The position numbers were made by a program, and so were the translations under genes. DNA of 33,312 nucleotides from Candidatus Bathyarchaeota archaeon (GTDB taxonomy: Archaea; Thermoproteota; Bathyarchaeia; 40CM-2-53-6; RBG-13-38-9), in contig JAGTRD010000020.1 of the NCBI GenBank assembly GCA_018396915.1, forward strand, positions 1-33,312, read 5' to 3'. Positions 5,774 to 11,732 of this stretch are shown in pieces (the stretch's first letter is position 1; each line of letters opens with the position of its first letter). A model generated the notes under the pieces. The model ran no database searches. It saw only the letters and a program-made list of their open reading frames with translations, and was not told the DNA's origin.

Positions 5774-6835
5774 CTATTTGTACCAGCTCAAACTTTCCTT
5801 AATATAGTCTATGAGAGATGAAAAGAATTCCTTAACTTCTATGTTCATGCCAGTTTTTGATATCAGATTCTTGGCTGAGTCGGCATGTTCCATAGATCTC
5901 TTCACCGCCTCTTTCAGGGATCCGCATCTCCTTACAATCTCTCTCGTCTTCTCCAAGTCTTCATCTGTGAGACCACTTTGAGCGGCTCTTCTGATGAATT
6001 CTATCTGTGGTTGATTTGCCATCATATATGTGTAGACTATGTGTAGAGGTTTCTTGCCTTTTATCAGGTCTCCCCCAGGCCTCCTACCGTACTCCTGCTC
6101 TGAGGCGAATGTATCGATGATGTCGTCTTGAATGTCGAAGCAGTAGCCTATATGCTCAGCCGCATCCTCGAGGATTTCAAGGTCCCTGGTGGGGGCTTCT
6201 GCCAAATATGCTCCAACCAGTATCGAGGTTTTAAACAGTGAGGCTGCCCTCTTCGATGCCATAACGTACCATTCTGCAATGTCAGGCATCTTATGTTCGA
6301 ATAGGAGGTCCAGTATCTGGCTTTCATTAACATCCTGGAAGGCTCTGTTGAGCCTATGAATTGTTTGAATCTTCTCTTGAATGTTGAAATCTGAGTCTAC
6401 AATCGCTCTCAAGGCCAGGGTGTAGAGGATGTTGCCTGCAAATACTGCTACGCCGGTACCAAACCTCAACCCGTGGCTTTGACAATATTTTCTATGGATG
6501 GTTTCTGCTCCTCTCCTCGTCTCATCATCGTCTGCCAGATCATCATGTATAAGGATGGAGTGGCGGTAGAGCTCAACCCCAACACAGACATCCAGGATCC
6601 TCTCATCAACCTCTCCCCTATACCCTTTATATGTCAGTAGTGTGCTGCATGAGGCGAGTCTCTTACCCCTTCTGAGAACATACTCACTCAAGTTATTGTA
6701 AAGTTCACCTATGTAAGGGTGGTAGGCGGAGGCTATCCTAAGGTTTTCATCTAGAAACCTTGAAACTTTCGCCTCTATGATGTTGCTGTACTCGTCTAGA
6801 ATCTTCTCCCATCCAACCATTGAATGATTCTCCAA
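5774..6835 (-). CDS. Isoprenyl diphosphate synthase (GGPP synthase family)
   Basis: This 353-residue all-alpha trans-prenyltransferase condenses allylic diphosphates with isopentenyl diphosphate, supplying chains for archaeal ether lipids or quinones. The first Asp-rich motif is HDDLADDDETRRG and the second is DIQDDIID; the family's basic residues (GKRL near 56, KGKKPL near 263) are present. The residue five positions before the first motif, which limits chain length in this family, is Ser here, whereas as I recall Sulfolobus GGPP synthase has Phe there. A small residue at this place is typical of enzymes making longer products, so the product may exceed C20; this is inference. The gene follows the radical SAM gene on the same strand after 40 bases, probably as one transcript. 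Confidence 0.93.
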   Translation of the reverse strand: MENHSMVGWEKILDEYSNIIEAKVSRFLDENLRIASAYHPYIGELYNNLSEYVLRRGKRLASCSTLLTYKGYRGEVDERILDVCVGVELYRHSILIHDDLADDDETRRGAETIHRKYCQSHGLRFGTGVAVFAGNILYTLALRAIVDSDFNIQEKIQTIHRLNRAFQDVNESQILDLLFEHKMPDIAEWYVMASKRAASLFKTSILVGAYLAEAPTRDLEILEDAAEHIGYCFDIQDDIIDTFASEQEYGRRPGGDLIKGKKPLHIVYTYMMANQPQIEFIRRAAQSGLTDEDLEKTREIVRRCGSLKEAVKRSMEHADSAKNLISKTGMNIEVKEFFSSLIDYIKESLSWYK

Positions 6836-6875: not shown

Positions 6876-7799
6876 TTATATTAGGCCAAGTGGATGCCTG
6901 AAACTCTCACCCCTCTCCAAACCAAACTTTCTAGCCAACTTCACAACTCTCCCATACTCTTCGAATGTCGGCCGCCTCTTCAACCCATCATACTTATATG
7001 CTTTATACATCGGCCTGTACTGGTCCATTATGTTGATGTATGTGTTTTTCGAAATCTCCTCAGCGATGAATCTGAGAACCTCCTCACTCCCAGCCCCATC
7101 CTCAGGCAAGACTAAGTGTCTTATGAGTAGCCCCTTCTTGGCGATTCCATTCTCAATCACTAGGTCACCTACCTGCCTATGCATCTCCCTAACAGCCTCC
7201 TTGCAACGTTCAAAATAATCTGGCGCGTTCGAGTATTCCTTAGCTGTGTCCGACCTCCCATATTTCATATCTGGCATGTAAATGTCGACTATACCTTCGA
7301 GGAGCTTTATCGTCTCAACATTCTCGTAGCCACCGCAGTTCCAAACTATTGGCAGATTCAACCCTTTCAAAATAGCGAGTTTTATGGCTTTGACCAGTTG
7401 AGGGGTGTAGTGGGTTGGTGTGACAAAGTTTATGTTGTGGCAGCCCCTCCTCTGAAGGCTTATCATATACTCTGCAACCTTATCCTCCCTCACAGCCGAG
7501 CCGTATCCTAGGTGGCTGATCTCATAATTCTGGCAGTATACACATAGCAGGTTGCAGTTCGTCAGGAATACTGTCCCTGACCCTCCAGTACCTACCAAAG
7601 GATCTTCCTCACCGAAATGAGGGTTGAAACTTGAAACCATTACCTCCATTCCAGACTTGCAGTACCCCCTCTCACCCCTCATCCTGTTTACTCTACACTT
7701 TCGGGGGCACAACTCACAACTCTCAAGGATCTTATACAGTCTTTCAAGCCTCTCATCTAAAACTCCATTTTCATAGGAGCTTAAATAAACTGGTTTCAT
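6876..7799 (-). CDS. Radical SAM protein, PFL-activating-enzyme-like (COG1313 type)
   Basis: A 307-residue protein. The radical SAM cluster motif CNLLCVYC has cysteines at about 82, 86 and 89, holding the 4Fe-4S cluster that cleaves S-adenosylmethionine. An N-terminal set, CELCPRKC (28, 31, 35) plus GYC (47), is typical of the COG1313/PflX and AmmeMemo-associated groups and may bind another metal or cluster. Further conserved pieces include VTPTHYTPQ and WNCGGYE. The family is annotated as PFL-activating by similarity only; substrates are mostly unknown. It is transcribed away from a second radical SAM gene that begins only 36 bases away, and its own downstream partner is the polyprenyl synthase. 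Whether it modifies a lipid or a glycyl-radical enzyme cannot be decided from the sequence. Confidence 0.88.
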   Translation of the reverse strand: MKPVYLSSYENGVLDERLERLYKILESCELCPRKCRVNRMRGERGYCKSGMEVMVSSFNPHFGEEDPLVGTGGSGTVFLTNCNLLCVYCQNYEISHLGYGSAVREDKVAEYMISLQRRGCHNINFVTPTHYTPQLVKAIKLAILKGLNLPIVWNCGGYENVETIKLLEGIVDIYMPDMKYGRSDTAKEYSNAPDYFERCKEAVREMHRQVGDLVIENGIAKKGLLIRHLVLPEDGAGSEEVLRFIAEEISKNTYINIMDQYRPMYKAYKYDGLKRRPTFEEYGRVVKLARKFGLERGESFRHPLGLI

Positions 7800-7821
7800 A
7801 TAGCATCCTAAAGATTCTCAA

Positions 7822-7840
7822 TCCACACCTACATTGTGGA
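7822..7840. promoter_or_regulatory. Inverted repeat over the start of the ferredoxin-radical SAM gene
   Basis: TCCACA (7822-7827) and TGTGGA (7835-7840) form a 6-base dyad with a 7-base spacer in the 36-base gap between the divergent radical SAM genes. The right arm covers the presumed GTG start at 7836. It could be a shared operator or a hairpin that hides the start. The plus-strand TATA-like GCTTAAATAAAC (around 7780-7791) lies inside the opposite gene. Confidence 0.35.
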
Positions 7841-9146
7841 GTTCTCTAATTTATTTGAATGGGGAAAAGACCATATCTTAACTTTTCTATTCACACAAGA
7901 TAGTAGGTGGCCTAAAGACTTGGCTCTGAAATATGCGTGGAGAGACAAGTCTAGATGTCGGATGTGCCATGTATGCGATGAGATCATAGCCTGTCCAGGG
8001 GAAGGTGTGGGTCAGGTCGAGGGATGTGTAGGCTGCGGGGCATGTGAACTTGCCTGTCCAAACGAGGCCATACAGCTTAAGGATAGGCTGGGAATTATGA
8101 GGGAGATAAAGATCAAGGTTGATCGGCGCGTGTTCCATATACCTGAAGGGGTGACTGTGCTGAATGCCCTTCAATATCTCGGCTATAAGGTCTCTAAATA
8201 TCCTGGTGAGGGTGTTCTATTCGCACCATGTGAGGTCGGTGGATGCTACAGTTGCTCCCTTAAGATAGATGGAGCCTTGAGGCCCGCATGTGTCACCCGT
8301 GTGAGGGATGGTATGGAGGTTGAGACATCACCCTCAGACCGTGAAGCATCGAGAAGGATTGTTGAGGGTTGGATGTGCCATACGGTTGGCGGGGTTGGAA
8401 CACCATGGTACCTGAAGAATGGAAAAGAATATGTTGAAGCCGCGGTCTTCGCCTGCGGCTGCAATCTCCGTTGCCCCCAATGCCAGAATTGGGAGATAAC
8501 TTATCGTGGCAAGGGTTCAGCTCTGACACCTGAGGAGGCGGCTTTGAAGATGACCCTGATGAGGAGGAGTTGCGGGGTGGATAGGATGGCCATATCTGGT
8601 GGAGAGAGCACCCTGAACAGACCCTGGCTCATACAGTACATTGAAGAGTTGAGGAGGCTGAATCCAGATGGGAAGGCTAGGATCCATGTGGACACGAACG
8701 CATCGATCCTCACCAAAGACTATATCGACGAGCTGATCGAGGCTGGGATGACCGATGTGGGACCTGACCTGAAAGGTCTGCGGCTCGAGACTTTCATGAG
8801 AATATCTGGGTTGAAGGACAGGGAGCTTGCAAAGAAGTATCATATAACGAGTTGGGAGGCGGTGAGGTATCTGGCCGACAAGTATCTGGGGGAGGTGTTC
8901 ATCGGTGTGGGGATCCCCTACAATAAGAGTCTCATCTCGATAGATGAGGTTGCCCGAATGGGTGAGGAGATATTTAAGATCGATTCGGAATTGCAGGTTT
9001 GCGTCTTAGATTATAGGCCTGAGTTTAGGAGAAGGGATATTGTGAGGCCTAGATTTGAGGAGATGGTCAGGGTTTGGAAGACATTGAAGGACGCTGGGCT
9101 CAGAACCGTGATATGTCAGACTGAACGTGGCCACATAGGTCCATGA
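7836..9146 (+). CDS. Fusion of dicluster ferredoxin, 2Fe-2S ferredoxin-like and radical SAM domains
   Basis: A 436-residue protein with three iron-sulfur modules. Residues 41-74 carry two cysteine sets (41, 44, 47, 53 and 64, 67, 70, 74; CVGCGACELACP), as in dicluster ferredoxins. Residues 92-160 resemble the Fer2_4-type 2Fe-2S domain, with an IPEGVTVLNAL strand-helix and cysteines at 132, 137, 140 and 152. Residues 203-436 are a PflA-like radical SAM domain, with CGCNLRCPQC (209, 213, 216), then ISGGEST and VDTNA. The ferredoxin part probably feeds electrons to the radical SAM cluster. The GTG start at 7836 leaves an ordinary N-terminus; a later start is possible. The substrate is unknown. 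The gene is monocistronic and ends facing hisC. Confidence 0.88.
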   Translation: MEFSNLFEWGKDHILTFLFTQDSRWPKDLALKYAWRDKSRCRMCHVCDEIIACPGEGVGQVEGCVGCGACELACPNEAIQLKDRLGIMREIKIKVDRRVFHIPEGVTVLNALQYLGYKVSKYPGEGVLFAPCEVGGCYSCSLKIDGALRPACVTRVRDGMEVETSPSDREASRRIVEGWMCHTVGGVGTPWYLKNGKEYVEAAVFACGCNLRCPQCQNWEITYRGKGSALTPEEAALKMTLMRRSCGVDRMAISGGESTLNRPWLIQYIEELRRLNPDGKARIHVDTNASILTKDYIDELIEAGMTDVGPDLKGLRLETFMRISGLKDRELAKKYHITSWEAVRYLADKYLGEVFIGVGIPYNKSLISIDEVARMGEEIFKIDSELQVCVLDYRPEFRRRDIVRPRFEEMVRVWKTLKDAGLRTVICQTERGHIGP

Positions 9147-10463: not shown

Positions 10464-11732
10464 GTGGGTGTGCAAATAAAGATTCCTTACGGTAAGGGTG
10501 AGGTTGAGTTCGATATAGATGACAGGAGGGTCCTGGGCGTAATTACCCCTGCAGAGATCCAGCCTGCCATAGATTATAGTTTGGAGATAGAGAGGTCTTT
10601 GAAGAATCCTATAGAAGGCCCAACCGTTGAGGATCTATCCCCAAGAGGCAAGACTGTAGCAATAGCTGTGGATGATTTGACCAGGGTGACACCGACCCAC
10701 CTCATACTGCCCAAGATTCTAGACTCACTCGAGAAGGCTGGAGCAAAGAGGAGGGACATCAAGATAATCATAGCCTTGGGTACACATAGGGAGATGACCG
10801 CTCAAGAGATGAGGGAGAAGTATGGGGCTACTGTCGTTGAGGAGTATGAGGTTGTCAACCATACTTTCGATGATGAGTCTAACCTGGAATATTTAGGTAA
10901 GATAGCTGGAGATGTCCCCGTCTGGATAAACAAGGAATATTTGAAGGCAGATATCAGAATAGTCACCGGAAATATTATACCCCACTTCAACGCCGGCTGG
11001 GCGGCTGGTGCTAAGATCCTGCTTCCAGGCTTGGCTGGCGAGGAGACCGTTGGCAGGATGCATGTCCACTCATCATTGACAACCCCAAACGGTTTAGGTA
11101 TGGATGAGAATCCGACAAGACAGTTGATAGATGCCTTCGCAGAAAAGGTTGGAATACATCTTCTTGTCAACACGGTCATAACGAGAAACAGGGAGATAGT
11201 TAGAGTCTACACAGGACATTTTATGAAGGCACATAGGCAAGGTGTGGAGTTTGCCAAGAGGATATATGGTGTAAAGGCCCCAGGACTGGCGGAGATATCG
11301 ATCTCTAGCAGCTATCCAGCAGACATCGAGTTCTGGCAGGGCCAGAAAGCCCTCTTCCCAGCAGATTTGGCAACAAAGCCTGGCGGAGGTATAATAGAGG
11401 TCACACCATGCCCAGAAGGCATATCCGTGATGCATCCCAAATGGATAGACTACCTACACTGTAATACTGAGGAGCTGAAGAGAATGTATGAGAGGGGGGA
11501 GGTTGAAGATTTGGTAGCTCTAGGTCTGGCAATGAACTACACAAGCATAAAGGATAAACATCCAATATGCTTGGTCTCAGAAGGAATATCCTACAGAGAC
11601 GCTGAGAAGATTGGATGTCAGAAATTCAGAAGAGTTGAGGAAGCTCTGGAATATCTTACTGAACGTTACGGTTCAGATTCTAAAGTGAATATTCTCACCC
11701 ATGGAGGAGAGACATATCCAATAGTAAGTTGA
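10464..11732 (+). CDS. larA: LarA-family nickel-pincer racemase/epimerase
   Basis: A 422-residue DUF2088/LarA protein. All hallmark residues fall at or next to the numbering I recall for Lactiplantibacillus LarA: His108 (ALGTHRE), His174 (NIIPHFNAG), Lys184 (GAKILLPG, the residue that bonds the nickel-pincer cofactor), His200 (GRMH), and a Gln-x-x-Lys pair at 290/293. The enzyme is therefore probably able to hold the nickel-pincer nucleotide and move a hydride on a 2-hydroxy acid or a similar substrate. Many archaeal homologues act on unknown substrates, so lactate is not certain. No larB, larC or larE lies in the window; the cofactor genes would have to be elsewhere. It starts with GTG; another GTG two codons later is possible. 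Confidence 0.88.
   Translation: MGVQIKIPYGKGEVEFDIDDRRVLGVITPAEIQPAIDYSLEIERSLKNPIEGPTVEDLSPRGKTVAIAVDDLTRVTPTHLILPKILDSLEKAGAKRRDIKIIIALGTHREMTAQEMREKYGATVVEEYEVVNHTFDDESNLEYLGKIAGDVPVWINKEYLKADIRIVTGNIIPHFNAGWAAGAKILLPGLAGEETVGRMHVHSSLTTPNGLGMDENPTRQLIDAFAEKVGIHLLVNTVITRNREIVRVYTGHFMKAHRQGVEFAKRIYGVKAPGLAEISISSSYPADIEFWQGQKALFPADLATKPGGGIIEVTPCPEGISVMHPKWIDYLHCNTEELKRMYERGEVEDLVALGLAMNYTSIKDKHPICLVSEGISYRDAEKIGCQKFRRVEEALEYLTERYGSDSKVNILTHGGETYPIVS

Follow-up and report, generated by a model that had tools for sequence, protein, structure and literature searches.

Two radical SAM genes stand back to back in the window, a 33,312-nucleotide stretch of a Candidatus Bathyarchaeota contig (JAGTRD010000020.1), and one of them encodes ferredoxin-type domains in the same chain. 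The locus raises the question of what this enzyme does with its extra cluster sites, and whether it works with its neighbor, with a glycyl-radical enzyme, or alone. The reductants of radical SAM enzymes in archaea are poorly known, and their auxiliary clusters are mostly unexplained. The ORFs of protein A (7836–9146, plus strand) and protein B (6876–7799, minus strand) are divergent, lie where the initial annotation placed them, and both score above the cut-off of PF04055, which bears out its description of two divergent radical SAM genes.

Domain Architecture of Protein A

The ORF of protein A opens at GTG 7836 and encodes 436 residues. Because the first 28 of these fall outside the family alignment (52 homologs), and because TTG 7920 corresponds to the position where the ORF of the nearest relative (locus L051, 86% identity) begins, the true start is probably TTG 7920, giving a 408-residue protein (7920–9146, plus strand). 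This start would widen the gap between the two genes from 36 to about 120 bp. Between the two genomes of the window's genus, dN/dS for protein A is 0.22, and the gene is therefore under purifying selection.

Pfam assigned Radical_SAM (72.2 bits, cut-off 29.5), Fer2_4 (39.6 bits, cut-off 22.8), and Fer4 (23.6 bits, over its cut-off) to protein A, the last corresponding to the second of two 4Fe-4S sites. The first site is too atypical for Pfam; its four cysteines are kept in 96–100% of the 52 homologs. Together the two sites, CxxCxxCxxxxxC and CxxCxxCxxxCP, occupy 7956–8057 on the plus strand (residues 41–74 of the 436-residue ORF), with ligands C41/C44/C47/C53 and C64/C67/C70/C74. The Fer2_4 2Fe-2S domain, of the HydA/NuoG type, follows at 8100–8330 (plus strand, residues 89–165) with four invariant cysteines, C132/C137/C140/C152. 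A sequence profile of the N-terminal part also matched the 2Fe-2S domains of HydA1, the complex I 75 kDa subunit, and formate dehydrogenase. The radical SAM core spans 8448–8918 (plus strand), with CxxxCxxC at 8460–8483 (C209/C213/C216) followed by the SGGE, HxD[ST]N, and [DE]xK motifs common to the pyruvate formate-lyase (PFL)-activating enzyme.

All 15 cluster cysteines are conserved in 96–100% of the 52 homologs, so the architecture is not due to chance, and Radical_SAM and Fer2_4 occur together in 49 of 49 aligned homologs. The ligand sets for two 4Fe-4S clusters and one 2Fe-2S cluster are thus complete within a single chain, and the fusion of a dicluster ferredoxin and a 2Fe-2S domain to a radical SAM core, as originally read from this ORF, holds up. 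Two further elements are specific to the family: the invariant H154, G157, G158, T161, and P162 directly before the core, and a C-terminal motif, LDYxPxFRR....RP, at 9006–9050 (plus strand), whose L, D, Y, P, F, and P are invariant in 49 sequences.

AlphaFold2 modeled protein A with a mean pLDDT of 94 and a pTM of 0.93. Only the core has a good match to a solved structure, the best being PFL-activating enzyme (TM-score 0.77 normalized to the target and 0.48 normalized to the query). In the numbering of the 408-residue protein, the core carries SGGE, invariant D258 and N260 with S or T between them, and D/E283-x-K285; D258-[ST]259-N260 and [DE]283-x-K285 align with LDTNG and DLK of PFL-activating enzyme. 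Protein A is thus predicted, from both sequence and model, to have the core fold of that enzyme together with its SAM- and cation-site motifs.

Distribution and Classification of the Protein A Family

Protein A was present in 53 of 300 Thermoproteota genomes and in 28 of 127 genera. Its spread is patchy: only 3 of the 38 genomes of the window's order carry it, and of these three, two make up our whole sample of the window's genus. The tree has two large clades, and the taxonomic families f21 and f20 each have members in both, a split suggestive of transfer or ancient paralogy. Apart from the relative in the same genus, a scan of genome contigs returned just a single distant protein, from a bacterium, and the plasmid collection that we searched held no match. 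Judged by its alignments, protein A is a coherent, conserved family.

No curated NCBIfam cut-off was reached by the window's protein A. Its best matches were NrdG2, MoaA, and PFLA; against NrdG2 (TIGR02495) it scored 59.7 bits where the cut-off is 131, which places it outside that family. The tetraether lipid synthase Tes (NF045702) was absent among the models that protein A matched at E 1e-5, and weak cross-matches to NF045702 were seen in 9 of 49 family members. We found no description of this domain order in the open-access literature that we searched. The window's genome (1.63 Mb) has 20 radical SAM matches, and none reaches the NrdG2 cut-off.

In two other genomes, G009 (locus L096) and G212 (L127), the gene for protein A is broken by an in-frame TAG, and in G246 (L101) a TGA was counted within the match. 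These stop codons may reflect decay, assembly error, or recoding.

Proposed Role of the Auxiliary Clusters

We lean toward protein A being an anaerobic radical SAM enzyme that acts alone, has its electron wire built into the same chain, and works on a substrate other than a glycyl-radical enzyme. Low-potential electrons from a ferredoxin or flavoprotein would enter the N-terminal 4Fe-4S pair and travel by way of the 2Fe-2S domain to reduce the 4Fe-4S cluster that binds SAM. Cleavage of SAM would then yield a 5'-deoxyadenosyl radical, which would abstract hydrogen from a small molecule, or from another protein or RNA, but not from a glycyl-radical enzyme. Which way the electrons flow, in what order the clusters relay them, and what class of substrate is attacked are our inferences. 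The suggestion that protein A may carry its own electron supply is plausible, because all three auxiliary sites are conserved across the family; the extra clusters probably carry electrons either toward the active site or away from it. There is precedent for auxiliary clusters that conduct electrons, in the radical SAM enzyme PapB (PMC10470005). We raise as a tentative possibility the fuller proposal that protein A stands for a radical SAM family not described before, one whose HydA/NuoG-type 2Fe-2S domain couples a ferredoxin module directly to SAM cleavage, and that the family serves an archaeal pathway with a non-glycyl-radical substrate.

The same conserved clusters could also serve a current running the other way. 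Fer2_4 domains, as in HydA and NuoG, can pass electrons in either direction, and protein A might be a radical SAM oxidoreductase in which the nearest auxiliary cluster oxidizes the substrate radical and the ferredoxin domains carry the electron away, a scheme put forward for SPASM-type dehydrogenases. We consider this rather unlikely. Sink clusters typically lie in the C-terminal SPASM/Twitch position, and the auxiliary domains of protein A are at the other end, the N-terminus.

With PFL-activating enzyme (PDB 3c8f/3cb8) protein A shares the radical SAM core fold and the GC..RC..C, SGGE, D[ST]N, and [DE]xK motifs, and it differs in the invariant H..GG..TP linker and the LDYxPxF motif. Relative to that enzyme and to the wider glycyl-radical activases, it has three extra N-terminal cluster sites, one of them 2Fe-2S, and a host without an intact glycyl-radical partner. 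Its Fer2_4 domain resembles the N-terminal 2Fe-2S domain of NuoG and HydA1 (7q4v, 8a6t, NDUFS1) in its four invariant cysteines; here, however, what the domain connects to the ferredoxin module is a radical SAM core in place of an H-cluster or complex I. A fused 4Fe-4S ferredoxin module is likewise found in HPAD activase and OaCutD. The dicluster domain of these two is inserted directly behind the radical SAM motif, and they are not known to have a 2Fe-2S domain, whereas the module of protein A is N-terminal and comes with Fer2_4. Both belong to the activases that have a ferredoxin-like domain, and many glycyl-radical activases bear auxiliary clusters of unknown function (PMC11528403).

A family with a complete, conserved set of four clusters in one chain of about 400 residues would make it possible to study, through ligand mutants of one protein, how electrons reach or leave the SAM cluster.

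Search for a Glycyl-Radical Partner

The resemblance to PFL-activating enzyme makes it natural to ask whether protein A activates a glycyl- or aminoacyl-radical enzyme, with its ferredoxin domain N-terminal instead of inserted. Its core is nearest PFL-activating enzyme in both fold and sequence, its best NCBIfam matches are NrdG2, MoaA, and PFLA, NrdD occurs in many carriers of protein A, and a Gly_radical domain occurs in 13 of the 53. We nevertheless regard this reading as improbable: protein A falls far short of the NrdG2 cut-off, and the genomic evidence points away from it.

The initial annotation had noted that the window holds no glycyl-radical enzyme, and this absence extends to the whole genome (96% complete), in which we found no Gly_radical domain and no PFL-like protein. 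The genome's sole NrdD homolog, at locus L150, has RSSATYIP where canonical NrdD has RVVGYLRP. Its adjacent active-site cysteines are gone (CC to GF), a further conserved cysteine is changed (C to E), and the radical position, alanine in L150, varies freely among A, S, N, T, and G in its relatives. Because the thiyl-site cysteines are lost and the radical position is free to vary, the L150 protein looks catalytically degenerate. Protein A as a glycyl-radical activase in its own genome can therefore be set aside. The same holds for an aminoacyl-radical partner, an idea taken from PMC11528403: L150 has alanine at the radical position, but the thiyl-site cysteines are also lost.

Co-occurrence across genomes gave a similar picture. 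An NrdD match better than 1e-20 was missing in 14 of the 53 carriers of protein A, and three of these 14 have PFL. The 11 others, metagenome-assembled genomes that are 89–98% complete and in which single absences may be assembly gaps, had no detectable glycyl-radical enzyme. With the window's own genome included, at least 12 of 53 carriers lack a detectable intact glycyl-radical enzyme, and protein A therefore cannot depend on a known one in all its hosts. Conversely, most NrdD-positive genomes are without protein A, and none of its neighboring genes that we examined encodes a glycyl-radical enzyme. Taken together, a glycyl-radical partner for protein A is unlikely. PFL-activase-like cores thus also occur where the host lacks glycyl-radical enzymes, so that an automatic label of "glycyl-radical activase" or "NrdG" would be misleading in this case.

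The L150 gene (L150:1495–3780, minus strand; G000:C1:121695–123980) encodes an N-terminal helix-turn-helix-like segment and keeps the C-terminal zinc-site cysteines. Homologs were found in 79 of 121 genomes of the class, and from these sequence features the protein looks like a class-wide pseudo-reductase or regulator.

Protein B and the Gene Neighborhood

Protein B (6876–7799, minus strand) is a single-domain radical SAM protein of 307 residues (PF04055, 45.7 bits, cut-off 29.5). It scored 19.6 bits against the AmmeMemoRadiSam enzyme model (TIGR04337, cut-off 220) and so falls outside that family; this similarity, like that of protein A to NrdG2, is weak and at family level, far under the curated cut-off. 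Protein B is a short relative, and possibly an ortholog, of a widespread family of 360–400 residues, with which it shares about 36–43% identity and which we take to be PflX-like (COG1313). A homolog at E 1e-20 was present in 194 of 300 genomes, and genomes with the shorter B-type showed no second member at that threshold.

Protein B is the divergent neighbor of protein A, not a conserved partner. It adjoins protein A only in the window's genus, that is, in the window and at L051, a locus that belongs to genome G325, to which it is 100% identical over 4.2 kb. The three closest homologs of protein B outside the genus (60–66% identity; G014, G160, and G190) are in genomes without protein A, and no protein B stood beside protein A at over 50 other loci. 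Because the two genus genomes share gene order over the whole stretch, through larA and past it, the adjacency of the pair carries little information. The suggestion that the two proteins form a radical pathway is thus not supported by the gene neighborhoods, in which the pair is not conserved together, the outcome that the initial annotation had named as refuting it.

The link to isoprenoid chemistry fares no better. A polyprenyl synthase paralog does lie 3' of protein B (5774–6835, minus strand), as first described, and is a local neighbor only. It follows protein B only in the window's genus, homologs of protein B elsewhere have other neighbors, and the genome has a second, higher-scoring prenyl synthase on contig C2 (193 bits against 142 for the window's). 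It is thus highly improbable that proteins A and B work together, as a divergent pair, in a radical pathway related to isoprenoids or tetraethers: the gene order beside the prenyl synthase is kept in both genus genomes, but these are syntenic throughout the stretch, the adjacency is absent outside the genus, and the other close homologs of protein B are in genomes without protein A and have no prenyl synthase beside them. Within the genus, the window's polyprenyl synthase is 85% identical and evolves faster than most of its neighbors.

No other gene emerged as a partner for the proposed stand-alone enzyme. No neighbor family occurred at more than six of over 50 loci of protein A, and recurrences were limited to a few lineages. 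Candidate operon partners that we considered and rejected (DUF438-like, Trm5-like, Mth938-like, and TatD-like) recur only within one or two lineages. A reading of protein A as a lipoyl synthase was also rejected: what we take to be lipoate genes lie near it at three loci, but two of these also encode a canonical LipA-like protein, and the other loci have none. Elsewhere in the window, 10464–11732 encodes a homolog of nickel-pincer racemases, for which the closest model was the LarAH6 malate racemase (335 bits against a cut-off of 500).
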